Below, one piece after another: positions 12,088 to 39,868 of a stretch of DNA of 40,666 nucleotides; position 1 is the stretch's first letter; each line of letters starts with the position of its first letter. Origin of the DNA: a virus; IMG/VR virus record IMGVR_UViG_3300020472_000061, positions 1 through 40,666 of that record; one strand, 5' to 3'. The notes below the pieces were generated by a model that was not told the DNA's origin, did no database searches, and was given only the letters and a program-made list of their open reading frames with translations. Position numbers and translations under genes: made by a program.

Positions 12088-13595
12088 TATTCCACCAAAA
12101 CCTTTGATGATTTAGCATCATCTATCGGGTCAATTGCCGTGCAAGGAGCGACGGCCCCTGGAGGAGTTGGCCCCCAGGCTGTCTTTAGAACGAGGTCGTT
12201 GTTTATAAAGTTCTGCAAATTATTAAGGCACTCTTTTAGTTCTTCGAATTTGACGCCATGTGAGCTTGGGTCTACCCCAAGCTCTATCCCATCAGCGGCC
12301 GTGGCATTTATCATAAATTTCTTTCCATCAAATACGAAGTCATTAATAACTTTTACAACCATCTGCTCCAAATAAACCTTGAAGTCGCCAGACTTAGTAA
12401 GCTCTAGTAGAGCTTGTTTACTAGAAGATCCGGAGAGTTGCTCACTTAGCTCGTCCCCGTATTCTATCTTAACGCCCTGAGCGACGTTTGCATAGACGGT
12501 CCTGTCAAGCTCTACATGTATATGCCCTTTTGAATGAAGGAAGTGGTCTCCGTCCTTATTAATCTGAAAAGCGTAGGTCACCTTTTCTTTGCTACCCGGC
12601 CCACCCTCAGCATCGTCATGAGGCCATATGGTAAAACTTAAAACACCACGAGAAGAACGGGTGTCCCAAACCGGGTCGTCCGCCTCTTCGTAACCATCCT
12701 TTAAACCAGGGAACTGTCTAAGCCCAACATCGCTAGACGTGGCCTCGTTAATTGTGCGGATGTTCCCGAAGATATGCTCATTATCTATCTCTGTATCAAG
12801 GGCCTCCTCTGTAAGACGCCCCATCCGAACCTCAACGGTGTAATTTCGGTGCCCAGAAGACCCGGCCGGACTAGATGCTTCTGTTTTACCCGCAACAACC
12901 TCCTGCACCATATCCTTAATACTGTACCGGACAATCACAGGTGTCTCTGTAGAGTTCGGGCCGCTAGCCGCTTCTACAACACCCCCTAAGGTGGTTTTTT
13001 CAGAAAGGTCACTCTCAGCAACAAGCTGCGCATGCCCCCACTCGATCTCCCCCACAGGGGAAAAGGCTTGGTACTTTTGGAAGTAATCCCTGACAACATT
13101 TTCTATGGGTAGGTAAAACCTTTGTGCTAGCGGCGTTGCTCCAATTTGAACCATTCCGCCTCTCCTAAGGCACACCTTGTTTCCATCTTGCGTGCCGAGG
13201 AAAACATCGCCAGGCTCTAAGAACTCACGCTCTCCCCGGAAATCTGGTCCCTTGTCAGCCGTAGTGGACTCTTGGACCTTGCCGTCAACTTTTTCGAATT
13301 GAGGGGTGTTTCTTGGGTCGGTGACGAAACCCAAAACAAATTGAGTCTTGTCAGCGCAGACACACACGTAACACATACTGCCCTCTTCGGGCATTATGGA
13401 TACACCGCCAGGATGACTTCTGTTTTGGTACGGCGTGGCGAATGGGATATCACTATAGGTCCTTTGCGTAAAAATTCCGATAGCGTCCAGTGTGAACTCT
13501 CTTGGATTTACGTAAACAACTCTAGCCAGCGCCACGCTCGCTGGGCCTGAGGCTCCTGTCGCGTCGGTAGAATTTCCTGAACTATCCTTAGCCAT
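12087..13595 (-). CDS. Tail hub/spike-like protein with gp5/gpV-type OB fold, 502 aa
   Basis: Near the N-terminus the sequence PGGVSIMPEEGSMCYVCVC, then VLGFVTD, has the beta-barrel pattern of the OB domain in T4 gp5/lambda gpV-like hub proteins. It is followed by FLEPGDVFLGTQDGNKVCLR and GGMVQIGA, typical of the segment leading into a spike. The C-terminal 130 residues are beta-rich (YAFQINKDGDHFLHSKGHIH; VHVELD-like repeats), as expected for a trimeric spike stem. No lysozyme insertion is seen. It would form or plug the tail tip and touch the host envelope. Start ATG overlaps the RNAP stop codon (TAATG) with GGGGG upstream, so RNAP and hub are made from one message. The tail type cannot be decided from this gene. 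Confidence 0.7.
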   Translation of the reverse strand: MAKDSSGNSTDATGASGPASVALARVVYVNPREFTLDAIGIFTQRTYSDIPFATPYQNRSHPGGVSIMPEEGSMCYVCVCADKTQFVLGFVTDPRNTPQFEKVDGKVQESTTADKGPDFRGEREFLEPGDVFLGTQDGNKVCLRRGGMVQIGATPLAQRFYLPIENVVRDYFQKYQAFSPVGEIEWGHAQLVAESDLSEKTTLGGVVEAASGPNSTETPVIVRYSIKDMVQEVVAGKTEASSPAGSSGHRNYTVEVRMGRLTEEALDTEIDNEHIFGNIRTINEATSSDVGLRQFPGLKDGYEEADDPVWDTRSSRGVLSFTIWPHDDAEGGPGSKEKVTYAFQINKDGDHFLHSKGHIHVELDRTVYANVAQGVKIEYGDELSEQLSGSSSKQALLELTKSGDFKVYLEQMVVKVINDFVFDGKKFMINATAADGIELGVDPSSHGVKFEELKECLNNLQNFINNDLVLKTAWGPTPPGAVAPCTAIDPIDDAKSSKVLVE

Positions 13596-16500
13596 TAATA
13601 CGTACCCCCTTCTCGGCCCTTACCAAACTCGGCGGAGTACGTAATCCCTGGGCTTGGGTGTAGCCCGTGTATGTCCGACTCCCACCCCTCATTGGCGGCG
13701 CGGATAAGTGTCTCCTTAAGCTTCCTGTATTGCATTCGCGCTAACCAGTCCGTGGTCTGGTCTAGCGGAAGCGTTTCCACGCCACGGAGCACGGGCTCAA
13801 CAAGAACCCCACTGCCTCCGGTATTGTTCCTGTTCAGGTGAGCAACGTGTGAGCTAGAGACAAGGTCATTTTTAACGAAGTCCGAATCTCCGGGGTCTAT
13901 AACCCTCGACAAGTTCGTAAGTGACTTCGTGACCACCTCAACGTTTCTACGCTTGATTCCCTCGCTCTTGTACGCACCGTGTATCTCGTCAGACAGATAC
14001 CGCTGTACAGTGTCTACATTGGTCAGCCCTAAAAGCTCCCTAGGGTTTATGGGTCCGCCCGTTAATCTTTGTCCTTTACGAACCTTAGCCCCTTTTTTCA
14101 CTTTTACTGAGCGGTCCCCAGGAACATACACCTGCTCCTCCCCAACCAAGACATCGTGCCCACCAATATCGCTTTTCTTAACAGCTTTGATAGTTCCCGT
14201 CACAGGACTCAAAACAGCGGACCCCGCAACAATTTCGGGCATTTTCAAAAGCTGTATGACTCGGTCAATTCCACCTACCAGGTTTCCCGACGCCCCTGCA
14301 ACACCTCCGGTGTGGAAGGATTTCATGGCCAGCTGGGTGCCGCGTTCTCCCAAAGAAGTACCAGCTATAAGGCCAATATTGGTCCCTTTTTCTATAAGGT
14401 TTCCTCCATTATATAGACCATAGCACTTGGAACAGAGGCCTTTTGAGGATTGGCACTTTAGTGGGGAGCGTACAAGAAGCTTAGATACTTTAGAGGACTT
14501 TAGGCTGGATAATAGGCTCGGAGTAACCTCAGTGTTTTTAGGAACAACCATGCCCCCTATAGACAATTTCTTAGCCGTGAATCGGTCTACGATATCAGCG
14601 TCGGTAGTGTCTAAAGCAATTCCGCGATCTGTTTTGCAGTCATCTTCGGTAATTAAGTAAGTTATTGCTGTGTTAGCTATTTGCTTATTCAGGGCTCCTG
14701 GCTTTTGAACAGATTGTACCTTTTCTATAAGACCTTTTCTTGCGCCCGAAGACGCTACCCAGTAACCAGACGTGTCTAGACCCTCAGAGTAAGACCGGGT
14801 TACGGGGACAGGAATAACCCTTCCTTTGGCGTTCTCCAATAACATCGGAGCGATAACCATTTGCTGTAGCTGCGACCATGAGGGCTTCACGCCCGCGTTA
14901 TTCATGGCTGCGAGCTTATTACCCCTTTTATTCAGGAGTGCCTTGGCTTCCTTGTTTATGTCTTCGGTCGCCTGCATGTATATTTTTATTATTTTTGCTT
15001 CGGCAGCTTCCGCAGAAAGCAAGTTCATCTCAACCTGCTTTTTTGTCGTTGACTCTTGCTTGCGCGCCTTAACCAAATGCTTTTCCCGTAACTTGCCGAG
15101 AGTCTTAAAGTCATCCAGGCTAAAAGAAAAGCCAATAGCGTATGAGTGGCCAAATCCAAGATCTTTAAGCTTGTCCACAGTTGTGGAGAATGCTCCAGGA
15201 GCCTTTGTTGCGACATCCCTTAAAACCCCCTGGAGCACTTTACTGCTCATGACCGCCTTAGGGTCTGTGAGAATCTTGTCGGTTCTAGCCGCCTTAGGCA
15301 GGGCCGCATGGAAAGTCGCCCTACCCAGAGTCGTCTTTTTCCCATCGATGGTCACAACGTCGGTCAAAGCAAGACTTCCGTCCTTCGCGGCAACACGAGC
15401 CTCAGAAAGGTCCTTGTAGGACTTATTTGTTTTCTTCCCCATCTGAGTGAGGAGGAACAACCCCATCTGTCCTTCAAGGGTGGGCTGGTACATAACCTTG
15501 CCGGTAGCAGGGTTAAACAAGTTCTTTGACGGCAACATTTTGTACGCCTCGTCAACCGCCTCTTGCGATACGGGGACGAATACCGCCATCGTATCTCCGT
15601 CAAAGTCCGCATTAAACCCTCCCGTCACAAGCGGGTGAATCTGGACGGAGGACTCGCCATGTAGTTTGGCCTTGAAGGCCATTATTCCGAATTTATGGAG
15701 AACAGGATCGCGCTTAAAAAGAACAGGCCGCTTAGACACAGCGATATCCAACGCCTTGTTAGCAAGGGAGGAATTTTTTTCAACCTCCTCCCGGGCAGAC
15801 AGCGGAGTATACCCCATGGCCACAAGCTCCTTAACAACGAAAGGACGAAAGATTTTCATGGCCCCTTTTCTAGGAAGCCCAAGCTCGTCCAGGTGAAGCT
15901 CCATGTTGGGGACAATGACGGAGCGCATTGCTAGGTCCTGCCTACGGTCCAGTAGCCTCTGGTGGAAAAAGCTCTGCTTCGGGGAGGTCCTTCCTGACAG
16001 GATTGCCAATATGCCTGGTGGCTTTGCTTGCCCGTCTATGGTTAAAGCCCCTTGATTTTGGCCGGGAGCTGTCCCCATTAAGGCGTCAATAGCGTCGTAC
16101 AAATCACCTCTTAGCGCTGCGACCTCTTCGTCCGGAAGAACACCGGAGGCCTCTTTGAGCTTGTTGTTCAATATGGCTATGTCTCTATATAAGAGGTTAA
16201 GCCCATCAACATTTAAGTCCCCACCCTCCATTGCGGTGATTGGCCTAAACAGCGGGGGGAGGATAGGCACGTTGCTAATCAGGTACGCCTCCTCGGCTGA
16301 CATTGAGTTTTTATCCAACATACGCAGGTATTTTATTTTCTTATTCGCCGCATCTAGCTTGGACTTTCTCGCAGTTTTTATATCCTCTTCTGCAGCGGCT
16401 AACTGCTGAGCCACATTGATCTTGGAAATCGCTTGGGCTATGGCCGCAGGGCCTTTTAACGAGGCCTCCTCGTCATAACCATTTTCGGATAAGCCTGCCT

Positions 16501-19500
16501 CACCGCTAATAATCTTGTCGTACTGGGCACCAGTGATGCCCAATAGGGATCGTACAGATTTCTCAAACACCGGATTTGGTAGCTTCTCGGGGAGAGTTAG
16601 ATGTGACCAGCTCTTGCCGCCAGGACCGCCCGTAATTTCTTCATCGAACAGGCCGTCTTTTTCAGGCTTCAAGTCTTTGCCTCTAATTACGCGACTTCCG
16701 TTTTTAATCTCACCATTGGACATAGACAGTATTTGCTTGTCGGTAAGAGGCTGAACTACAAGCCCATTCCCCTCCTTCTCTACGTTCACGCCTATTGCAG
16801 CAAGATACGCAAGAAATTTTTCATACGCAAAAGAGGGCTTTGGTGTAGGCAGCATCTGACCTGTCTGCACAGCTGTCCAAACCTCGTCTTGGGACTTATC
16901 CCCTTTGTACGTAAGGGCGTCTCGGATATTAGCTGTCGCGCCATGCGCGAGCATCGCGTAGAGGCCAAGCTCCCCAAATCTTTGTCCTCCGGACCCTCCA
17001 CCGCTCTTAGGTATCATGTTCGCGCTGTAATCGTACCCGTACCCGTGTGCCCGCGCCGATAGCTTCTTGTCCACCTGGTGCGTCATCTTGAGTATGTATT
17101 GCTGGCCAACCAAAACCTTGCCTAAGCTCTTCCCGCTAACAGGATCAAAAAGCTCTTCCGTCTCGTCAACGCCAGCATCTTTTAATGCACTCTTAACTAC
17201 TTCTTGGTAACCAAGCTCACGCTCATGCTCTTTTACAAGAATCCGTTTGGGCCCGCTTTTTGTTTTTATAGTTCGGTAATGTTCCTTAACCTTAACAACC
17301 TTCTTCTCGTCATCTGATTGAAAGTTTTCAACCGCGTACGGCTCTCCGGTTTCCGCAGCGGCTTTAGCTAAGGATGTCTCCAGAACCTGCCCGAGGTTTA
17401 TTCGCCCAGGAACGCCGGAAGGGTTGAATATAATCTCTAGGGGAACGCCTTCGCTGTTCTTAGGCATCTCTTCGTTAGGAACGACTGCGGTTATAACCCC
17501 TTTGTTCCCATGCCGACCGGTAAGCTTATCTCCGATGTCCGCGGGCTCCTCCGTCTTAACAAAGACCGTGACCTCTCTACCATTGCGCACAACGTCAGTC
17601 ACCACGCCCGAGTAAGGCTTTTCCCACGACACAGACCTGTCTTTATACGGTCTGGCCAGCGAGCGGTGGATACCTTTCAAAAGAATTTGCTCTTTGGAAG
17701 GTTCGGACTTCTGTAAAGCTGCTATTAGGACGTCGCCGGGGGAAACTTTCTGCCCCTTCTTTATTACGCCGTCCTCATCCATTTTAGCGGCGTTCTCTTC
17801 AGAGACCGCGCCAGGATAGTTTGCTCTAAACTTTTTTAGGCCTAGCGCCATGTTTTTTTCTACGTATACGCGTGGCTTGTGCAAGTGCTCGCTTGTAAGC
17901 CGCTCCGCTGCAGCCTCAGAGATCACAATCCCGTCCTCAAACACAAGCCCCTTATAGGGCACGTATCCAACACGCAAATTGGTGCCTAACGACAAAGTCC
18001 CATTTCTTGTAAAATTTGTGTCCGCAATAGTCTGACCGGCCTTTACAGCAGCCCCCTTTGTCACAATCGGAGTGCTCTGCATAAACGATTTCTTCTCATT
18101 AAGAGGGAAGCTTTCGTACAGAGCGATCTCGTGCTTTTTGCCTGCGCTGTCGGACACAACGATCTTAGACGGTCCAACGCTAGACACGATACCGCTCACA
18201 GGGCTTGTGTGTGCCGAAAGCCCGCCCATAACCTTTTCCCACGTAGAGAACCTTTTTTCCGGGTTCCCAGACACAACTTGTACGAGAGGCTCTTCCCGGT
18301 ACTTCAGAGAAATAGCCTGCTCCATGTGCCGGGTTGCCATCCCTGCGCGATTTGCTTGATCCGAGGGAAGAAAAGGGACAAGGTTCGCAGTCATAGAAAA
18401 AAGCTGCTTGGGAGACTGTAGAACGTAATCGACTTTGTTGGCGGCTATGTCTCTCGGATCTCCCCCGTCCTGATCCACAACTGTTACGCTCTTTGTCTTG
18501 GGGTGTGGTCGCCCGTCTGGGCCAAAAATATACTGGTCCGGGAACGCTACAGCCTTTCCGGACAAGTCCGCTGGGCTCCGGTTCTCGTACTTCCCTGAGG
18601 CCGTGGAAAATACGCGGATTGTTGGATTGTTCCCAATCTTAGACACACCCAGCGATAGGTGCCCACTAATACCAGACCTTTTCCCTTCAGGGGTGTGAAT
18701 AGGGTCCAAAAAACCCAAGTGACTTGAATCAATAAGCTTAGCGTCGTCAGATATAGCAAGGTCGCTACTAATTCCGCCCGTACCCAGAATAGTAGTTCTG
18801 AGGAATCCACCTACCATATCTATTGGGTTTGTTTGGTTGGGTTGTTGAGATAGTGAGGTTGAGGTGAAATAAGCTTTCACAGGGACATTAAAAATGTCCG
18901 GGGTCACAATGCTCTTTACAGAGTCTTTTCTGTCCAGATTATTCTTTATCTTAAACTCAATTCTTTTCGAGGAATTAAGAATTCTTTCTGGAAGATGGTC
19001 CTCTATAGACCATAACTCTTTGAACCTTAAAGAGTCTCGGTTGTCTGGCTCGCGATCTCCTTTATTTATAGCTAATAAACGATCAGACGCAGCAAGGAGG
19101 GTCCCCCCCTCAACCTTGCTAAAGGGTGCGCCCAGCGTAATTTCGGTCGTGTCTTTTCGCAGCTCAGTTTGTTTTAGCTTATCAAGTATAACGGGAGTAG
19201 CCTCTACGTCTGTCTTCCCCTCAAATCTGCGATCAAGCGATTTAGCAAGCTTGACCAGCTCCCCTCGCTTTTTGTCAGAGACACTTTTGGCGTAAAGACT
19301 CTCGCCCCACACCGATCTAATCTCTTCGTCAGAAACCCCCATTGCCTGGAGAACCGGGAGAAGCTGGATGTTAGTGGTTCCGTAGTTAAGCATAAAACGC
19401 TTCTTCTCTGGGGAAAAAGCCATTCTAAACCCTCGACCTTTAGAGAGGTTAAATTGCGCCTCCAGGCCGCCGTTCGCTTTAACACGGGAATACACTCCAG

Positions 19501-19855
19501 ACTTAAGTCTCCACTGATTGTCTGACTGATATTCAGTACCATCGACAATATAGCTAAATCTTCGGGTTATCTTGGGGAGCCCGATAAGCTTCAGCTTTTT
19601 GACCGAGTCCACAACTGTTCCTGTCTCTTTATCTACTAGGGAGAAATCGGCGTATATGGGAACTGACCAGGTTCTTCCGCGCAGCCTCGCCTTCTTCTGA
19701 CTGGCGATATCGTCCACGTCCACGCCTTTTCCGGCGTATACCTTAGTGGCAACAAGTTTTTTAGTTCTCCCCTCCATCGGGAAAAACTTTTCTACCTGCT
19801 CTATGGTCCTTTCTTCGAGAGCTTTCATCGCCCTCTCGGGATCAAGAATTGACAT
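13595..19855 (-). CDS. rpoBC: Single-chain fused RNA polymerase beta-beta' (2,086 aa)
   Basis: DNA-dependent RNA polymerase with both large bacterial subunits in one frame. Beta (about residues 1-1028) shows a rif-region SLSQQPNQTNP (334-344), FEDGIVISE, GRHGNKG (780-786), SGVPGRINLGQVLE and GGQRFGELGLYAML. Beta' follows almost without a linker (from about 1030): LPPLFRP clamp region, NADFDGD catalytic Asp triad (1415-1421), bridge helix SSGARKGL, zinc site 2 (C1740, C1801, C1808, C1811), and trigger loop SLGERGTQLAMKSFHTGG with H1848. The beta' N-terminal zinc domain is missing (after DGLF, 1067-1070). The beta flap is cut to a short hairpin (about 750-775). There is no SI3-type trigger-loop insertion. 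Total length is roughly 660 aa below E. coli beta plus beta'. Start ATG has GGAGG five bases upstream. No alpha, omega or sigma gene is visible in the window. Confidence 0.97.
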   Translation of the reverse strand: MSILDPERAMKALEERTIEQVEKFFPMEGRTKKLVATKVYAGKGVDVDDIASQKKARLRGRTWSVPIYADFSLVDKETGTVVDSVKKLKLIGLPKITRRFSYIVDGTEYQSDNQWRLKSGVYSRVKANGGLEAQFNLSKGRGFRMAFSPEKKRFMLNYGTTNIQLLPVLQAMGVSDEEIRSVWGESLYAKSVSDKKRGELVKLAKSLDRRFEGKTDVEATPVILDKLKQTELRKDTTEITLGAPFSKVEGGTLLAASDRLLAINKGDREPDNRDSLRFKELWSIEDHLPERILNSSKRIEFKIKNNLDRKDSVKSIVTPDIFNVPVKAYFTSTSLSQQPNQTNPIDMVGGFLRTTILGTGGISSDLAISDDAKLIDSSHLGFLDPIHTPEGKRSGISGHLSLGVSKIGNNPTIRVFSTASGKYENRSPADLSGKAVAFPDQYIFGPDGRPHPKTKSVTVVDQDGGDPRDIAANKVDYVLQSPKQLFSMTANLVPFLPSDQANRAGMATRHMEQAISLKYREEPLVQVVSGNPEKRFSTWEKVMGGLSAHTSPVSGIVSSVGPSKIVVSDSAGKKHEIALYESFPLNEKKSFMQSTPIVTKGAAVKAGQTIADTNFTRNGTLSLGTNLRVGYVPYKGLVFEDGIVISEAAAERLTSEHLHKPRVYVEKNMALGLKKFRANYPGAVSEENAAKMDEDGVIKKGQKVSPGDVLIAALQKSEPSKEQILLKGIHRSLARPYKDRSVSWEKPYSGVVTDVVRNGREVTVFVKTEEPADIGDKLTGRHGNKGVITAVVPNEEMPKNSEGVPLEIIFNPSGVPGRINLGQVLETSLAKAAAETGEPYAVENFQSDDEKKVVKVKEHYRTIKTKSGPKRILVKEHERELGYQEVVKSALKDAGVDETEELFDPVSGKSLGKVLVGQQYILKMTHQVDKKLSARAHGYGYDYSANMIPKSGGGSGGQRFGELGLYAMLAHGATANIRDALTYKGDKSQDEVWTAVQTGQMLPTPKPSFAYEKFLAYLAAIGVNVEKEGNGLVVQPLTDKQILSMSNGEIKNGSRVIRGKDLKPEKDGLFDEEITGGPGGKSWSHLTLPEKLPNPVFEKSVRSLLGITGAQYDKIISGEAGLSENGYDEEASLKGPAAIAQAISKINVAQQLAAAEEDIKTARKSKLDAANKKIKYLRMLDKNSMSAEEAYLISNVPILPPLFRPITAMEGGDLNVDGLNLLYRDIAILNNKLKEASGVLPDEEVAALRGDLYDAIDALMGTAPGQNQGALTIDGQAKPPGILAILSGRTSPKQSFFHQRLLDRRQDLAMRSVIVPNMELHLDELGLPRKGAMKIFRPFVVKELVAMGYTPLSAREEVEKNSSLANKALDIAVSKRPVLFKRDPVLHKFGIMAFKAKLHGESSVQIHPLVTGGFNADFDGDTMAVFVPVSQEAVDEAYKMLPSKNLFNPATGKVMYQPTLEGQMGLFLLTQMGKKTNKSYKDLSEARVAAKDGSLALTDVVTIDGKKTTLGRATFHAALPKAARTDKILTDPKAVMSSKVLQGVLRDVATKAPGAFSTTVDKLKDLGFGHSYAIGFSFSLDDFKTLGKLREKHLVKARKQESTTKKQVEMNLLSAEAAEAKIIKIYMQATEDINKEAKALLNKRGNKLAAMNNAGVKPSWSQLQQMVIAPMLLENAKGRVIPVPVTRSYSEGLDTSGYWVASSGARKGLIEKVQSVQKPGALNKQIANTAITYLITEDDCKTDRGIALDTTDADIVDRFTAKKLSIGGMVVPKNTEVTPSLLSSLKSSKVSKLLVRSPLKCQSSKGLCSKCYGLYNGGNLIEKGTNIGLIAGTSLGERGTQLAMKSFHTGGVAGASGNLVGGIDRVIQLLKMPEIVAGSAVLSPVTGTIKAVKKSDIGGHDVLVGEEQVYVPGDRSVKVKKGAKVRKGQRLTGGPINPRELLGLTNVDTVQRYLSDEIHGAYKSEGIKRRNVEVVTKSLTNLSRVIDPGDSDFVKNDLVSSSHVAHLNRNNTGGSGVLVEPVLRGVETLPLDQTTDWLARMQYRKLKETLIRAANEGWESDIHGLHPSPGITYSAEFGKGREGGTY

Positions 19856-27588: not shown

Positions 27589-27905
27589 TGGCTAAAATAT
27601 CTGAATGCCCGATAGATGAGATAAGGCTTACAAACCTGGTTATAGACCACCACGCTAATGCAAAAGTCGTGGACCAAAACAGGTACATGTTCGCAGTGGC
27701 GCAGTTTGCCTACTACATGGACGGTGACCCTGTCGGTGAATTTACAATAAACGGTCTGACGGAGGATCTCGGGGAAGAACTCAATTCCCTAATCGACGCC
27801 ATCGAAGAGACAGTTGCGAAAAGAATGGGCTTCTCTGGTCAAAGTGAAGAACCTCGGCAAGTGCCTAAGGGAATCATAGACCACGGCGGACCAGAGGAGT
27901 TTTAA
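27588..27905 (+). CDS. Early-module protein, 105 aa, unknown
   Basis: ATG overlaps the upstream stop and has GAGGGGG upstream. The product is small, soluble and acidic. A beta-like middle (YMFAVAQFAYYMDGDPVGEF) is followed by an acidic helix (LTEDLGEELNSLIDAIEETV) and a short tail. It is coupled to the replicative helicase gene (TAATG). A helicase-loading or replisome-accessory role would suit the position directly upstream of dnaB, but the sequence does not show it. Confidence 0.78.
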   Translation: MAKISECPIDEIRLTNLVIDHHANAKVVDQNRYMFAVAQFAYYMDGDPVGEFTINGLTEDLGEELNSLIDAIEETVAKRMGFSGQSEEPRQVPKGIIDHGGPEEF

Positions 27906-29314
27906 TGTCGGCTAGCTGGGAAATGCAGCTGCTGTCAGCGATAGTAAGCAACTCGGAACCTTCTGAGCTGTTCGACAAAGCTGTGCGGTCAGGAATAACT
28001 TTTAATGTGTTTAGTGGCATAGAGGCTAAAAACCTCTGGTCTACTATCGAGGCGCATTACAACCGGCCGCACAACTTTGGGCATATCCCGAGCCTCCAGT
28101 CTCTGGAGGAGTCTTTCCCACATCTTGACTTACCAACCCCCGTAGAGAACTTCGGCGATCTATGTGAAAAGGTACAAGTAAACTACCTGAAAAGGCGGGC
28201 GGAAAAGGCGGTACAAACATATCTGGAAGACGTTTCTGAAGATGCCTTATCGGCAGTGACAGACCTGTATTCCTCATTGGGACAAATCCAAGAGCAGACC
28301 TCAATAGACAAAGATGTGTCTTTTGATGAGGTGGCCTTTGATGAAGTCCTGAGAGATATGAAAACCATTGAGGAGTGCAACGGGACAACCGGTATGCCTT
28401 GGCCATGGCTTCCCTTAAATACCGCTACCGGCGGTATTCAGGAGGGAGACTTCATCATGGTATGGGCGATGCCTAAAAGCATGAAGACTTGGTTCGGCTT
28501 AATTATTGCTGCACATCTGTACAAAACTGGGAGGCGTGTAGTCGTCTACTCCAAGGAGATGCATTGGGACAGTCTTAGAAGAAGGCTTGCCTGCATTCTT
28601 GGGAAGGTGAATTACACCCGGTACAAAGAAAACAGTTTATCTAACGCAGAGATGAACGCTGTCTTGGAGGTTCTTGAGGAGCTTACAAGTGATGAGCATA
28701 CGGGTAACCTTGTGTTTACTACGGCGGATAGGACCGACGGATCTCCCGGAGGTCCTGCTGAGATTCGAAGAAAGATAGACATTTACCGTCCGCACTTTGT
28801 GTTGCTTGATTCTGCTTACATGTTGGAGCTTCCTGGAGCAGGCGCTAACGCCTACGACTGGAAGCACCTAGCTTTGGTAAATAGGCAGCTAAAGCAGACT
28901 GCGAAGACGACAGGAGTTGCTCTCCTGGCGATCTTGCAGGAGCACGAGCGTGCGGCTTATAAGTATGCTAAGAGTAGAGGTACTGCCAGCTTAGCCATGA
29001 ACACCAGCGCCGTAATGGACTGTGACGTGGGCCTAAGGCTTGTGTACCACAAGAAGAAAAGGGAAATCAGTATTCACTACGCGGCGGCCCGTGAAACGGA
29101 GAAGGATGGTTTTACTATCCATGCTATTGCTGCGGAGAACTTTGAATACGCGCACGACCACCTACACAACGTAGGTGACGACTTTAAGGAAGACGCAGAG
29201 CAAGAAACTACTGTTGAAGCTCCTTCGGAGCAAACCACTTCACTGAGGACTTCATACCGGTCAGGTAACGATGTTCCGGATGAGATCTCAGAGGATCTAC
29301 AGGAAGATGACTAG
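27905..29314 (+). CDS. dnaB: DnaB-like replicative helicase, 469 aa
   Basis: Hexameric 5'-3' helicase that would unwind the fork ahead of the phage polymerase. The N-terminal domain resembles DnaB-N (EMQLLSAIVSNSEPSELFDK). The RecA-like core has Walker A AMPKSMKT (188-195), where Met replaces the usual Gly before Lys, Walker B FVLLDSAYML, and a sensor/arginine-rich region ILQEHERAAYKYAKSRGT. GAGGAG lies close upstream, and the ATG overlaps the previous stop. The C-terminal 50 residues are acidic and Ser/Thr-rich (EDAEQETTVEAPSEQTTS), perhaps a contact for primase, whose gene overlaps this one. Confidence 0.92.
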   Translation: MSASWEMQLLSAIVSNSEPSELFDKAVRSGITFNVFSGIEAKNLWSTIEAHYNRPHNFGHIPSLQSLEESFPHLDLPTPVENFGDLCEKVQVNYLKRRAEKAVQTYLEDVSEDALSAVTDLYSSLGQIQEQTSIDKDVSFDEVAFDEVLRDMKTIEECNGTTGMPWPWLPLNTATGGIQEGDFIMVWAMPKSMKTWFGLIIAAHLYKTGRRVVVYSKEMHWDSLRRRLACILGKVNYTRYKENSLSNAEMNAVLEVLEELTSDEHTGNLVFTTADRTDGSPGGPAEIRRKIDIYRPHFVLLDSAYMLELPGAGANAYDWKHLALVNRQLKQTAKTTGVALLAILQEHERAAYKYAKSRGTASLAMNTSAVMDCDVGLRLVYHKKKREISIHYAAARETEKDGFTIHAIAAENFEYAHDHLHNVGDDFKEDAEQETTVEAPSEQTTSLRTSYRSGNDVPDEISEDLQEDD

Positions 29315-31571: not shown

Positions 31572-33464
31572 ATGGGAATGTTTTCAGTTTTACCTGAGGC
31601 CGTCTCGGTGAATTGTGTGGAAGATGCTTCCCGTGTTGTGGAACATCTATCTAAACGAAAAGTGCTGGCCGTTGACACAGAAACAACAGGCCTTTCTAGG
31701 ACCAGGGACCGGGCAATCATCCTGGCGATAAGTGATGGTAAGGACCGTTATGCGGTCTACCCCAACTGCCTGCCAATGTTTAAAGACCTCCTGGAGAATC
31801 CAGAGGTAAAGCTAATTGCGCATAACGCGAACTTTGACCAGTGGATGCTCCTGAACTGTGGCATCGACTTGGACAGGTACACTCAAAGGGGTCACTATCG
31901 CGTTTACGACACGATGGTTATGCACGCCCTAATCGACGACACCCTACCCCACGACTTGAAGTCATTGTCCAAGTCCTACTTGGGCATCGACATGGTTCCC
32001 TTTAAGAGCGTGTTTGGCGCTCAGATGAGGAAAAGAACACTGACGGAGCTTTTATTAGATCCTGATAACGAGGAAGTAGTTGTTAATTACGCTGCATTAG
32101 ACGCCTTTGCTACATACCGACTGTTCCTAAAGCTTCGCGAGGAAATGCTCTCTATAAGGCTTTCTGAGGGTATGGCATACGAGACCCTTTGGCATTATTA
32201 CGCGAGCACGGAGCTTCCGTTCACAAAAGTGTTGTGGCACGTTGAACGCGCTGGAGTAATGATCGACAAGGATGAGCTTTTAAGGCAAGCGCCAGAGATT
32301 GAGAAAAAGCTCCTAAAGATACAGAAGTGGTTTGGTCGTTCTATGGGGCAGCTTTACGTGAACCTGAACAGTAACGACCAGATGGCCTCTTGGTTCTTTG
32401 GGGAGCTTGGCCGGAGTCCTGAGAGCTACACAGAGAAAGGGAAGCCGCAGTTAAACAAAGCGGCTTTGAGTAAGTGGTCGAAGGAGGGCTGCAAGTACGC
32501 GGCCAGGCTCCTTCAATACCGAGATCTAGACAAGAAGCTCTCTACGTATATCTCAAACCTTATGGGCTACATACATGTAGACGACCGAATTCACGCCTCG
32601 TTCAACCAGACCGGGGCAAGGACCGGTCGTTTAAGCTCGTCTGATCCCAACCTTCAAAACCAACCTCCATACATCCGTAGTGCCTACGTCCCAGCAAAGA
32701 ACAACAAGCTTTTTGCAGCAGACTATGCGCAGCTAGAGATGCGGATCCTCGCGCACTTCTCGAAAGACCCGACCCTGTGTTCATCAATCATTGACGGCCT
32801 GGATGTACACTCATCTACGGCTGCCAAGATGTTCAAGGTTTCTTACGAGGGGATAACCGAAGCAAGAAGAAAGGACGACGACGGGGAAGAGATAACTGGG
32901 CACGAGGAATACCTCCTTAAATGCCGTAAAGGCGCTAAGGCGATTAACTTTGGGCTCATGTACGGACAGGGGGCGGGGGCTCTAGCGGGTACGCTCAACT
33001 GCGACATTAATGAAGCAAGAGAGCTTATACGGCAGTACTTCGCGGCATTTCCGGATGTAACGAAGTACTTTAAATCCACGATTGCGCAAGCTAAGAACGA
33101 CGGATTTTGCAGTACGCTCCTTGGCCGGAGGAGGCAGGTCCCGGGAATCAATTCCTACGTAAAAGGCGACGCCGCTCAGGCGGAGCGAAAGGTTAAGAAT
33201 TCGCCTATTCAGGGTACGGCGGCAGACATCACCAAAATGGCGATGATTAAGATCTGGGAAGATCCGCTAATTGCTGCTTCTGGCGTCAAGATGGTCATCC
33301 AGGTTCACGATGAAATCGTGTTCGAGGTACCCAACGAGTTCGTAAACGATAAAGACTTTAACAACCGCATCAAAGACTTGATGATGCACCCCTTTGACTT
33401 CGACTTAGCTGTTCCTCTGGAAACGTCAAGCAAGTACGGGGACAACTGGCTGGAGTGTAAATGA
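31572..33464 (+). CDS. polA: Family A DNA polymerase with 3'-5' exonuclease, 630 aa
   Basis: Replicative polymerase of the phage. Exonuclease motifs are intact: Exo I AVDTETTGL (D35, E37), Exo II AHNANFDQWML and Exo III YAALDAFAT. Polymerase motif A is DYAQLEMR (D384). The O-helix motif is KAINFGLMYG (K456, F460), and motif C is VHDE (H579, D580). No 5'-3' nuclease domain is present, as in other phage PolA. F460 corresponds to E. coli F762, the residue that discriminates against dideoxynucleotides. A segment before the O-helix (about residues 421-455) is roughly 19 residues longer than in E. coli Pol I and acidic (RKDDDGEEITGHEE). ATG has AAGGAG eight bases upstream. Confidence 0.97.
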   Translation: MGMFSVLPEAVSVNCVEDASRVVEHLSKRKVLAVDTETTGLSRTRDRAIILAISDGKDRYAVYPNCLPMFKDLLENPEVKLIAHNANFDQWMLLNCGIDLDRYTQRGHYRVYDTMVMHALIDDTLPHDLKSLSKSYLGIDMVPFKSVFGAQMRKRTLTELLLDPDNEEVVVNYAALDAFATYRLFLKLREEMLSIRLSEGMAYETLWHYYASTELPFTKVLWHVERAGVMIDKDELLRQAPEIEKKLLKIQKWFGRSMGQLYVNLNSNDQMASWFFGELGRSPESYTEKGKPQLNKAALSKWSKEGCKYAARLLQYRDLDKKLSTYISNLMGYIHVDDRIHASFNQTGARTGRLSSSDPNLQNQPPYIRSAYVPAKNNKLFAADYAQLEMRILAHFSKDPTLCSSIIDGLDVHSSTAAKMFKVSYEGITEARRKDDDGEEITGHEEYLLKCRKGAKAINFGLMYGQGAGALAGTLNCDINEARELIRQYFAAFPDVTKYFKSTIAQAKNDGFCSTLLGRRRQVPGINSYVKGDAAQAERKVKNSPIQGTAADITKMAMIKIWEDPLIAASGVKMVIQVHDEIVFEVPNEFVNDKDFNNRIKDLMMHPFDFDLAVPLETSSKYGDNWLECK

Positions 33465-36369: not shown

Positions 36370-37422
36370 ATGCCAGAAGATTTAAGCTCATTAATAAAGA
36401 AAGTACAAAAGGACCTAGGAGGCTCAGCTAAAATAAGCAGGCTTTCTGAAGTATCAGCGCCTTTCCATACAAGACTCCCCACCGGAATATTAAGCCTTGA
36501 TATCGCCCTAAGGGGTGGGTTTCCTGCGGGGTCGATGCATCAGCTATTCGGGCCGGACGGGTCGGGTAAGGACTATTTGACCAATCTGGTGATGGCCCAA
36601 GTTCAGAAGAAGCATGGGGACGACGCCAATATTGCTTGGATGAGTTTTGGATACAAGCCAGACATTCCTTTCATGGAGATGGCTGGGGTTTCCCCAGATG
36701 TTGGAAACCTACTATATATAGACATTGGGAACGAGGATGCTCTTGAGCATCCGTCGGAGAGTCTGTTGTCAGGTGCCCTAGAGCTTGTTAAGTCTAATAA
36801 GTTTCAACTACTTATCATTAACGAGCTTGGTAGCGGTGAGACAAAAGACAATATCGTAAAGCATCTTCATGAAGATGCTAAGATAGCGACCTGGGCGTCC
36901 CTTCTTACTTCCTTCTGTCAGAAGTTCTACAGCGCCATGCGGATTCCCGACGAAGAGGGTAACGCTAACCAGACTTGCGTTCTCATGATTAATCCTGTTC
37001 GTGCAAACTTGGATGCGAGGTCAGCCAGATTCACCCCTTTTACTCAAGGAGGCGGGTTTGCGCTAAAGCATGCTAAGGCGGTGGACATCCACTTGCGTCC
37101 TGGAGCGACGATAAAAACCAATAAAGAGGGTAAAATCGGCAAAGAGATCAAGTGGAAGATTAGCAAGGGTAAGCACGGCATCAGCGAGGGCGCTGAGGGC
37201 TCTTACAACTTCTACTTCAATAAGGGTGTTGACCTCGTAGCGGACACAGCAAACGCCGGGAAAGCTTGCGGAGTCATTGCAAACAAAGGCCCTGTTTACT
37301 ATGTCCTAGACTACGAAGACAAAATCAAGGGCGGCTTGGACGGAGTAGTTGAGATGATGCGCAAATCGCCATCATTAATAGACGAAGTTAGAGAAGCCGT
37401 TTTGGAAAAGTCTGATGGCTAA
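36370..37422 (+). CDS. RecA/UvsX-like recombinase homologue with altered ATPase residues, 350 aa
   Basis: The sequence aligns cleanly by eye with the RecA core: Walker A GPDGSGKDYL (61-70), AWMSFGYKPD (89-98), Walker B LLIINELGS (147-155), and L2 region MINPVRANLD to FTQGGGFALKHAKAVDIHLR. RecA positions T73, E96, D144 and Q194 correspond to D68, G94, N151 and P209. Only the Walker A Lys (K67) is kept. The protein could still form filaments but may hydrolyse ATP poorly or not at all, or use different residues. It heads the recombination block and overlaps the Hjc-like gene. AAAGGA lies nine bases upstream. Confidence 0.85.
   Translation: MPEDLSSLIKKVQKDLGGSAKISRLSEVSAPFHTRLPTGILSLDIALRGGFPAGSMHQLFGPDGSGKDYLTNLVMAQVQKKHGDDANIAWMSFGYKPDIPFMEMAGVSPDVGNLLYIDIGNEDALEHPSESLLSGALELVKSNKFQLLIINELGSGETKDNIVKHLHEDAKIATWASLLTSFCQKFYSAMRIPDEEGNANQTCVLMINPVRANLDARSARFTPFTQGGGFALKHAKAVDIHLRPGATIKTNKEGKIGKEIKWKISKGKHGISEGAEGSYNFYFNKGVDLVADTANAGKACGVIANKGPVYYVLDYEDKIKGGLDGVVEMMRKSPSLIDEVREAVLEKSDG
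36860..36879. repeat. Perfect 20-bp palindrome in the RecA-like gene
   Basis: AGCATCTTCATGAAGATGCT reads identically on both strands. A second near-palindrome, GGATGCTC-TT-GAGCATCC (36735-36752), lies 110 bases upstream. Both are inside coding sequence. A perfect 20-bp palindrome is unlikely by chance in 40 kb, but codon constraints could favour it. Confidence 0.6.
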
Positions 37423-38164
37423 TATCTCTATACTTACTGGGCCCAAGGCGACCCCTCGAATTGTTGAGGGGTTGCCGTTTCTCCCAGGGCTTTACATACA
37501 CCGGACCTACGGTTCTCCGGAGGATGATGACTATACAATAACCCACATAACCAGTGGGTTAGCTGTTCTTCTATCGGTGCTTGAATCGGAGATCGAGTCT
37601 ATACGTATGGTTTTTGGGAGAATGACCTGGGACAAGCCCGCCGAAGTAATATTTAGAGATGGTCGATATTTTAAGCTGCTTGAGGAGGTGCTTTCGATTA
37701 TGAAGAAGACAAAGAGCCAGCTCCAAGAAGAGCGCATTGCTGCCGATCTGGATGGCAAACGGCAACCTGCCTCAGGGTCTAGATGGGGGTATAAGAGAGA
37801 CGTAATAACTCCAGAGCTTCTGGTTGAGGCAAAAACCACTGGAAAAGGCCGGGCGTCTGTTCGGTTCGACGACTTAGAGTTTTTGACAAAACAGGCATAC
37901 ACACAGGGGTTGGTCCCCGCGTATATAGTTGATATACAGTCCGAGGAAAGCTTCGTAGTTGTTCCCGAGAACGACCTAGATCCCACCCACCTGCAGGGTT
38001 TGGAAATGCTTAGCCTCGGTGCAAGTAAAAAGTCTTTCTCTGTAACTGCCGCGCATGCGCGATCCCTTACAAGCAAGACGTTCTACTCTGTCCCAAGAGA
38101 TGAAGACCGTTATCTAGTTTTGAACTACCGGACTTTTCTCAATTTTATAAAAAGCGGATTGTAA
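37415..38164 (+). CDS. PD-(D/E)xK nuclease, Hjc-like Holliday-junction resolvase fold, 249 aa
   Basis: ATG overlaps the RecA-like stop. The C-terminal half has the Hjc/restriction-like core: SGSRWGYKRDVITPELLVEA with D129, E138 and K140 as the D...E-x-K triad, then RFDDLEFLTKQAYTQGLVPA and a hydrophobic strand (YIVDI). The N-terminal 110 residues are an extra helical/beta domain not found in archaeal Hjc. It would cut branched DNA during recombination or before packaging. The presence of RusA two genes downstream makes the division of labour unclear. Confidence 0.68.
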   Translation: MANISILTGPKATPRIVEGLPFLPGLYIHRTYGSPEDDDYTITHITSGLAVLLSVLESEIESIRMVFGRMTWDKPAEVIFRDGRYFKLLEEVLSIMKKTKSQLQEERIAADLDGKRQPASGSRWGYKRDVITPELLVEAKTTGKGRASVRFDDLEFLTKQAYTQGLVPAYIVDIQSEESFVVVPENDLDPTHLQGLEMLSLGASKKSFSVTAAHARSLTSKTFYSVPRDEDRYLVLNYRTFLNFIKSGL

Positions 38165-38166
38165 AT

Positions 38167-38880
38167 ATGAGTAAGGATATGGAAGACATGCCCGTAAGAT
38201 GCTTTAGGGAAGATTATCCCACGCACAACGACAGGTTCAACGTCGCCGACGTAATTAGCGACATACAAGAAGACATGAACAAGCAGCCCTGGACTCGAAA
38301 GGTTGGTCACTACCATCCGTCGAGCGTGAAGGGTTGCGCCAGGTCAATGTACTACGACCGTATTGGTGAAACCCCTGTTCCCTGCGTAGCGCCTAAGCTC
38401 AGAATGCTATTTGATCTTGGACACGCGGCGCATGGGATGATCGAGGACGTTCTAAAAGAGTACCCAGATTTTGAGTCCGAGGTTCCCGTAAAGTTCGAGC
38501 CTCTGAATATCTACGGACATTGTGACGGAGTATTCGGGAAAGAGGACTGGGTCCTGGAGATCAAAACCATTGGTGACGCCTCTTTTAAGACGCTTACCAA
38601 GCCGAAGGTAGAGCATCTTTGGCAGATCCATTGCTATATGTTCGCGCTGGACATCCCTAGATGTCAGCTGATCTACGTAAATAGAAACAACGGCCACACA
38701 CGCCTATTTAGAGTGTTGTTTGAAAACGACATTTGGGATCAGGTTGCAGCTAAAATAAGCTCTGTGGAGGCCTGTGTAGAGTCTGGGGAACCACCCCCTC
38801 AAGAAGTTAATTGGTTTATGTGCTCCTCTTGTAAATTCAAGAAGACATGTAATCCCGACCTAAACCGGAGCAAATACTAA
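38167..38880 (+). CDS. Cas4/RecB-like Fe-S exonuclease, 237 aa
   Basis: The order of motifs fits the Cas4-like branch of the RecB nuclease family. YHPSSVKGCARSMYYDRIG holds the first cluster Cys (C57). GHAAHGMIEDVL is motif I, GHCDGVFGKEDWVLEIKTI gives the D...E-x-K site, and HLWQIHCYMFAL is the Q-x3-Y motif. CSSCKFKKTC (C219, C222, C228) completes a 4Fe-4S site. It probably trims DNA ends for strand invasion. There is no CRISPR array in the window, so no adaptation role is implied. The ribosome-binding site is weak, and the gap from the previous gene is two bases. Confidence 0.9.
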   Translation: MSKDMEDMPVRCFREDYPTHNDRFNVADVISDIQEDMNKQPWTRKVGHYHPSSVKGCARSMYYDRIGETPVPCVAPKLRMLFDLGHAAHGMIEDVLKEYPDFESEVPVKFEPLNIYGHCDGVFGKEDWVLEIKTIGDASFKTLTKPKVEHLWQIHCYMFALDIPRCQLIYVNRNNGHTRLFRVLFENDIWDQVAAKISSVEACVESGEPPPQEVNWFMCSSCKFKKTCNPDLNRSKY

Positions 38881-38898: not shown

Positions 38899-39438
38899 AT
38901 GAATGAAGACCCCTTCATCGACCTAAAAGAAGTAATAGAAAAAGATATAGCGGCTACGGGGTTTTACCCAAAAGAGAACCCTCCTGGCAGAGAACCATCT
39001 ATATCTGGAGGGCTTGAGAACAAATCCAAAGCCGAGCTAAAGAATCTTTATGATCAATTCCTTGCCTACTACGAATACGTAACCGATGACATAACAAGGC
39101 TCATCGGCTATGTCTCTGTAACCAAGGTTAGGCTAGATCACGCGTCAGCCGCTGCTGTGCGGCGAGCGCACGCAAACCCAGAGTACACAAATGCTGATCT
39201 AAGAAAGGCGGGGGCGACTACCGACCTTGTCTATGTAGAGGCTCAGAAGGATAACCTGTATTTCAAGACGCTATTGAATATGCAGGAAGAACGTAGACGA
39301 AAATTTAGTAAATGCATGGATCGCCTTGGAAGAGAACTTTGGTTCCGAACACAGGACGATTCAAAATCCTTAGACTCTAATGGGAAAAGCTCTGGTACAC
39401 AGGGCGGATTTTCTCGCGGGTATCGTAAACTTGAGTGA
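38899..39438 (+). CDS. Recombination-block protein, 179 aa, unknown
   Basis: ATG at 38899 has GGGGA six bases upstream; ATG at 38893 would add two residues but sits directly on that site. The product is mostly helical and charged, with an aromatic stretch (NLYDQFLAYYEYVTDDITRL) and a long helical region (EAQKDNLYFKTLLNMQEERR; FSKCMDRLGRELWFR). The tail is Ser/Gly-rich. It lies between the Cas4-like nuclease and RusA, so an accessory recombination or DNA-binding role is likely but not shown by sequence. Confidence 0.75.
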   Translation: MNEDPFIDLKEVIEKDIAATGFYPKENPPGREPSISGGLENKSKAELKNLYDQFLAYYEYVTDDITRLIGYVSVTKVRLDHASAAAVRRAHANPEYTNADLRKAGATTDLVYVEAQKDNLYFKTLLNMQEERRRKFSKCMDRLGRELWFRTQDDSKSLDSNGKSSGTQGGFSRGYRKLE

Positions 39439-39868
39439 CAAAGCATTTAAAGCGCGAATAGATCTTCTTCCGCCATCCGTCAACCGGATGTACGTTTATA
39501 CTACGCGAGGGCCTAGGCCTTCTGGCGAAATGAAGAAGTTCAAAGCAAAGGCGGCTTCTCAGATAGCCAAACAAGTTTTGTTTGATAAACCGCCCCTATC
39601 TCCTGAGAAACCTTACCGACTAGTGATAGACTTTTATCTGCCTGCCCTGTACAATTCGGGCTGGCCTAAAAAAGCTAAGACTAGGTTTAAGCGTAGAGAC
39701 GTGTCCAACCTGATAAAGGTTGTTGAGGACGTTGTCTCTGCCTGCCTCGGCATAGACGACTCGTGTTTCACAGAGGTTCATGTGCGCAAACTACACGGCC
39801 CTAAGTATAACTTTGAGGGTCTAGACATATCCATCTATGAGTTGAGTGATGAAACTACAAGAGCTTAG
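39431..39868 (+). CDS. rusA: RusA-family Holliday-junction resolvase, 145 aa
   Basis: The family hallmarks are clear: an N-terminal LPPSVNRMY, then the active-site helix RRDVSNLIKVVEDVVSACLG, and GIDDSCFTEVHVRK with the catalytic Asp pair. The second Asp of the D-x-D-N-L motif of E. coli RusA is Ser here (D-V-S-N-L), as I believe also occurs in other phage RusA-like proteins. It resolves junctions left by recombination-dependent replication. The start is set at TTG 39431, overlapping the previous stop (TTGAGTGA), which gives normal family length. An in-frame ATG at 39380 would add 17 residues and a 59-base overlap. Confidence 0.88.
   Translation: MSDKAFKARIDLLPPSVNRMYVYTTRGPRPSGEMKKFKAKAASQIAKQVLFDKPPLSPEKPYRLVIDFYLPALYNSGWPKKAKTRFKRRDVSNLIKVVEDVVSACLGIDDSCFTEVHVRKLHGPKYNFEGLDISIYELSDETTRA

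Follow-up and report, generated by a model that had tools for sequence, protein, structure and literature searches.

RecA is the textbook case of an invariant ATPase centre within a homofilament, and the gene studied here raises the question of how a viral RecA homologue is to be understood in which residues of that centre have been replaced. The window, that is, the whole stretch of 40,666 nucleotides that was analysed, is a 40.7 kb virus record and itself a genome fragment, and carries at positions 36370–37422 (+ strand) a stop-free open reading frame of 350 amino acids, the product of which we term protein A. That protein A is a RecA homologue, as the preliminary description of this locus had held, is confirmed by its match to PF00154 (1.7e-18, 67.5 bits against a cut-off of 27, residues 5–286) and by an alignment with E. 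coli RecA that runs from end to end. It further matches phrog_97 (phage RecA/UvsX-like) at 2.7e-27, scores 86.2 bits with the RecA equivalog TIGR02012, below the cut-off of 325.3, and reaches 21.7 bits with the Rad51/RadA family PF08423, just below the cut-off of 22. An AlphaFold2 model of A is of moderate confidence (pLDDT 66), with RecA chains as its best structural matches (Z about 13).

Alignment of A with E. coli RecA, T4 UvsX and phage RecAs bears out the four substitutions first noted at this locus. In Walker A (GPDGSGKD, residues 61–68, at 36550–36573 on the + strand, as are all parts of the gene given below) the Lys is kept as K67 and is followed by D68 in place of T73; the catalytic E96 is replaced by G94 (36649–36651); the Walker B Asp, D144, has become N151; and Q194, at the start of loop L2, is P209 (36994–36996). 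These changes fall in the gap-free blocks GPDGSGKD, AWMSFGYKPD, LLIINELG and MINPVRAN, so that misalignment is not an issue. A fifth change was found in addition, S145 being E152, a new invariant Glu directly after Walker B, and N151-E152 (36820–36825) close the Walker B strand at the position of RecA D144-S145. The statement that only the Walker A Lys had been kept proved wrong, however. D98 and F101 (36661–36672) stand at the positions of RecA D100 and Y103, which we take to contact adenine. R196 and G212 of loop L2 are common to both proteins (R196 as R211 in A), K266-G-K268 (37165–37173) corresponds to the trans-acting K248 and K250, and residues 1–33 (36370–36468) align with the N-terminal arm, comprising the RecA N-terminal domain and polymerisation motif, with I22 at the position of RecA I26. 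In RecA, I26 has a role in polymerisation, and E96 and K248/K250 are partners across the filament interface, with the lysines reaching the ATP of the neighbouring subunit (PMC2672939); roles of the corresponding lysines and Glu in UvsX have been described as well (PMC3016280, PMC10144138).

Protein A therefore resembles bacterial RecA (E. coli; PF00154, TIGR02012) in its fold, arm, C-terminal domain, nucleotide-pocket positions and lysine pair, whereas Walker A Thr, catalytic Glu, Walker B Asp and Gln194 are all replaced. With T4 UvsX and the phrog_97 recombinases it has in common the role of phage recombinase, but UvsX keeps K-S, E92, the Walker B Asp and a K246/R248 bridge (PMC3016280, PMC10144138). 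Put in terms of the residues that mark a catalytic RecA, A is without GxxxxGK[T/S], Glu96, the Walker B Asp144 and Gln194 (His in UvsX), and its trans-acting lysine bridge, an invariant KGK, conforms to [K,R]x[K,R]; by its sequence it passes as a RecA-fold, arm- and lysine-bearing filament protein and does not, by the residues tested, qualify as a catalytic RecA.

Searches of viral contigs returned 14 distinct sequences of this type (class A, the window included), and a DNA pattern for Walker A recovered five more, which brings class A to 19 proteins, or 18 relatives of A, down to about 55% identity and below. D68, G94, N151, E152, P209, K266 and K268 are invariant in 14 of 14 and in the five further relatives (D73, G96, N144, E145 and P194 throughout in RecA numbering), and the look at relatives that the preliminary description had proposed for D68, G94, N151 and P209 thus found all four fixed in the 18 relatives. 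D98 is invariant in class A, F101 occurs in every sequence except one (L118, with Leu), and the position of RecA I26 is I or V in the window's own group and A in L158, L138 and L143. Synonymous codon variation is seen at every key site among the class A genes, and dN/dS for gene A, taken over pairs with unsaturated dS only, lies between 0.02 and 0.12. Together these sequence data identify gene A as a maintained design under purifying selection and not as a product of decay, in line with the earlier opinion that loss of function was unlikely. Sequencing error, frameshift and chance were considered and dropped, the reading frames being stop-free and the residues identical in 18 relatives from independent contigs, and the dN/dS range likewise removes a pseudogene from consideration. 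No window-type family turned up in bacterial genomes in a single scan of GTDB contigs made with the A profile. A protein search of cultured phages returned only RecAs with less than 60% identity to A (the best among the matches listed at 23–27%), and those that were read all have canonical sites. Downstream of the position of RecA Y103 and ahead of the Walker B strand, three class A proteins (L010:8001-9128, L042 and L043) carry an insertion of approximately 24 residues, which follows the MAGV segment.

The surroundings of gene A are those of a recombination locus. Upstream lies a family A DNA polymerase (31572–33464), and directly downstream a Holliday-junction-resolvase-like gene (phrog_2002; 37415–38164), followed by a Cas4-like PD-(D/E)XK exonuclease (38167–38880) and a RusA-like resolvase (39380–39868), all on the + strand and the latter three syntenic in relatives; the order DnaB, primase, PolA, RecA, resolvase, Cas4-like nuclease and RusA is kept among the class A relatives.

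Using the pattern GPDGxGKD together with a class C profile (see below), we placed class A in a clade of phage RecAs marked by the KGK lysine motif (support 0.998), in which the ATPase centre is dismantled stepwise and the intermediates are still living. With the residues at 73, 96, 144, 145 and 194 written as a code, the clade contains the canonical TEDSQ (eight distinct proteins, one of which has G at 145), DEDSQ (one protein, L107), DENSQ (class C; 11 proteins, for instance L174, L171 and L178) and DGNEP (class A; 19 proteins, including the window). L107, which is the same as L168 (reverse strand, 433-aa open reading frame), has Asp after the Walker A Lys with the Walker B Asp, E96 and Q194 intact, and its DEDSQ state is a plausible intermediate. 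Class C shares with A the Asp after the Walker A Lys, the Asn that replaces the Walker B Asp, the KGK motif and an upstream PolA, but keeps E96, S145 and Q194. Class C RecAs also have an insertion similar to that of L010, L042 and L043. PolA stands directly upstream of the class C RecA in those records where PolA could be seen, and this common order makes the RecA genes of classes A and C positional orthologues. The class C RecA is the sole RecA of its 150–196 kb genomes, from which it follows that the exchange of Thr for Asp and of Asp for Asn occurs in phages with one RecA of their own; taking class C and canonical sister contigs together, a single RecA was found in 13 records of 142–196 kb. 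Acids gained at 73 and 145 go together with the loss of those at 144 and 96: every N144 protein has D73, all 19 G96 proteins of class A have E145, and position 145 is small (S, T or G) wherever E96 is kept. The best tree puts the canonical phages next to class C, and a single clade of A and C is not rejected (p-AU 0.0575), so that the D73/N144 exchange arose once or twice. Searches of the open-access literature brought up neither a phage RecA in which Asp follows the Walker A Lys nor a phage system with two RecAs.

Protein A had been described as the only RecA-like gene of the window, and it is indeed the sole PF00154 match there; as an argument for its function, however, this reflects the length of the fragment. 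A PF00154 search of the relatives' records, followed by a profile search, detected a second RecA-like gene, B (about 290 aa), alongside A in six of six class A records of 148–181 kb, the search for a second RecA proposed at the outset having thus succeeded in every record of 148 kb or more. A and B lie 55–59 kb apart in five of these six genomes, and in the sixth (G013, a 180 kb record) the spacing would be about 56 kb on the assumption of circular permutation. In the shorter class A records (for example G012, G010, G016 and the window) the expected place of B is beyond the record end, and in G009 it is right at the contig end; the genome from which the window derives probably carries B too, at a place outside the fragment. 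B appears only in DGNEP genomes among the clade genomes examined, and the B profile gave nothing on the sister phages tested except the P-loop of their own RecA. The loss of E96 and Q194 thus coincides with the presence of B.

All seven B sequences have T or S at 73, E96, D144, S or T at 145, and Q194. In the same seven the lysine pair is broken (R at 248 and L or M at 250, giving R-S-L/M), one Arg (R206) thus remaining at one of the lysine positions (248), and the sequence, which starts at RecA residue ~37, has no N-terminal arm; an arm that went unnoticed is excluded because the start of B overlaps or abuts an upstream AAA+ gene. The lysine bridge motif [K,R]x[K,R] (PMC12890299) is kept by UvsX and by canonical phage RecAs save that of Gordonia phage RedWattleHog. 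The latter RecA (L088), otherwise canonical, has Gln at the K250 position (KNQ). As read from their sequences, A and B lack nearly opposite parts and are almost mirror images of each other. The trees of A and of B divide the six genomes alike; relative to each other, A and B are both long-branched, and B takes no settled place in the trees. An AlphaFold2 model of B is of low confidence (pLDDT 50) and matches RecA chains. The neighbourhood of B consists of a ParB-like gene, an AAA+ gene (PF00004), B itself and a radical-SAM activase-like gene, and recombination genes do not adjoin it. The AAA+ gene is present beside B in all six genomes with A and B and in none of the sister phages searched, and is possibly a functional partner of B. 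Where complete, it encodes about 520–530 aa and overlaps the start of B (L048:1469-3025, L049:1400-2992, L053:77-1522).

We consider the best explanation of these data, at somewhat less than an even chance, to be a two-component phage recombinase in which A makes the filament, B hydrolyses ATP and the active site is composite at the A-B interface. A would provide the filament-forming N-terminal arm, a RecA-like DNA-binding face and both trans-acting lysines, K266 and K268, while its nucleotide pocket would bind without the usual hydrolysis; B, a core that has no arm but whose cis site is intact, would supply ATP hydrolysis. A and B would then be in contact, the ATPase site would extend over both, and ATP would be turned over only at A-B interfaces, where K266 and K268 of A would reach into the site of B, and A by itself would hydrolyse no ATP. 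In F1-ATPase, the alpha subunit, of RecA fold but non-catalytic, binds nucleotide and, acting in trans, makes up the missing part of the catalytic site in the adjoining subunit. The logic proposed for A and B is the same, with the composite site a proposal and with no homology claimed beyond the shared fold; F1 alpha, moreover, keeps the Walker A Thr. For the two-component reading count the reciprocal residue states of A and B, their co-presence in six of six long genomes, the congruent trees, purifying selection on A and the conserved neighbourhood, and, among the sequences compared, B is absent from the sister phages that keep E96 and Q194. Against it counts the location of B next to ParB-like, AAA+ and radical-SAM genes, by which B may serve another process, as do R206 of B, which leaves the complementarity imperfect, and the nucleotide pocket of A together with the gained E152, which could restore hydrolysis by A itself. 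The class C RecA, with half of the substitutions of A and no B, counts in the same direction, and implies that a RecA carrying some of these substitutions can be self-sufficient. B may also have entered class A in one acquisition event, in which case six of six does not amount to six independent observations. The fuller version of the two-component reading is less likely than not: a heteromeric, F1-like RecA filament of a non-hydrolysing, arm-bearing, lysine-donating A and an arm-less catalytic B, active only together and derived through TEDSQ, DEDSQ, DENSQ and DGNEP, with the P-loop Ser/Thr and Walker B Asp passing in concert to Asp and Asn.

The acid exchanges within the clade can also be taken to mean that the active site of A has been relocated, a reading that is possible but that we regard as the less probable course. 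Protein A would then be a self-sufficient ATPase and recombinase, with D68 taking over the Mg2+ role of the Walker B Asp and E152 acting as catalytic Glu, and the job of B would be unrelated. Both exchanges conserve charge, N144 always going with D73 and G96 with E145 (19 of 19 in class A). The first is compatible with function, since class C RecAs, each the sole RecA of its genome, combine D73 and N144 with intact E96, Q194, K248 and K250, and L107, in which D73 and D144 are both still present, is a plausible step towards it. There is little or no variation at the Walker A Lys, D98, F101, K266 or K268. In most ASCE ATPases the catalytic Glu occupies Walker B +1, an arrangement to which the RecA/F1 class is the exception, but P-loop NTPases are also described as conserving strictly both the Walker B Asp and the [Ser/Thr] that follows the Lys (PMC9599734). 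Furthermore, Q194, the residue that couples ATP to DNA, is Pro in all of class A with no obvious substitute, and B is present exactly where E96 and Q194 are lost. It is this apparently uncompensated loss of Q194, the restriction of B to the type that lacks E96 and Q194, and the complementarity of the parts missing from A and B that lead us to favour the two-component recombinase over a relocated site. As to whether acidic residues replace those lost, which the preliminary description had wished to see from a predicted structure, the sequence does give acids gained at D68 and E152, but the model, at pLDDT 66, is too weak for side-chain geometry.

An unlikely third reading makes A a regulatory paralogue, which would bind nucleotide and DNA without hydrolysis and mediate or stabilise filaments of B or of host RecA, with no shared site, as do Rad51 paralogues. 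Such a role would suit a protein that has lost four catalytic positions but keeps its arm, nucleotide pocket and lysines, and the existence of a second RecA whose cis site is intact would fit it as well. However, it is A, and not B, that is the positional orthologue, downstream of PolA, of the sister phages' sole RecA, and, heading the recombination genes as well, A looks like a primary recombinase rather than an added regulator; B, for its part, is without the arm needed for making filaments alone. Rad51 paralogues, archaeal RadB and phage Sak4 do offer a conceptual parallel to the pair, as an altered-site RecA-family protein beside an intact one, but A and B are both RecA-type and not Rad51-type, with RecA leading the PDB hits. 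A decaying or non-functional RecA, for which the four lost catalytic positions might speak, is highly improbable given the dN/dS of gene A, the fixation of the odd residues amid synonymous variation in all relatives, and the conserved synteny. The absence of normal hydrolysis, a paralogue and a relocated site had all been put forward at the outset, and the finding of B and of the acid exchanges gives them concrete support; the sequence does not choose among them.

Protein A is, from its sequence and that of its relatives, a variant RecA-family recombinase, for which a two-protein mechanism is plausible. Such a clade would constitute a natural experiment on the parts played by the catalytic Glu, the Gln194 relay and the hydrolysis of ATP, and on the possibility of dividing a recombinase over two proteins. 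Catalytic re-routing in P-loop NTPases is a further matter on which the clade bears, through its Asp/Asn exchange at the Mg2+ site and its shift of Glu to Walker B +1.

Two further observations concern other parts of the window. A very large open reading frame of 2086 aa occupies 13595–19855 on the minus strand, in a half of the window in which most proteins tested are without a PHROG match, apart from terminase and helicase-like hits. In the DnaB-like helicase at 27905–29314, the profile matches end near residue 345 of 469 (PF03796 positions 7–180 of 255), and the C-terminal quarter looks divergent.
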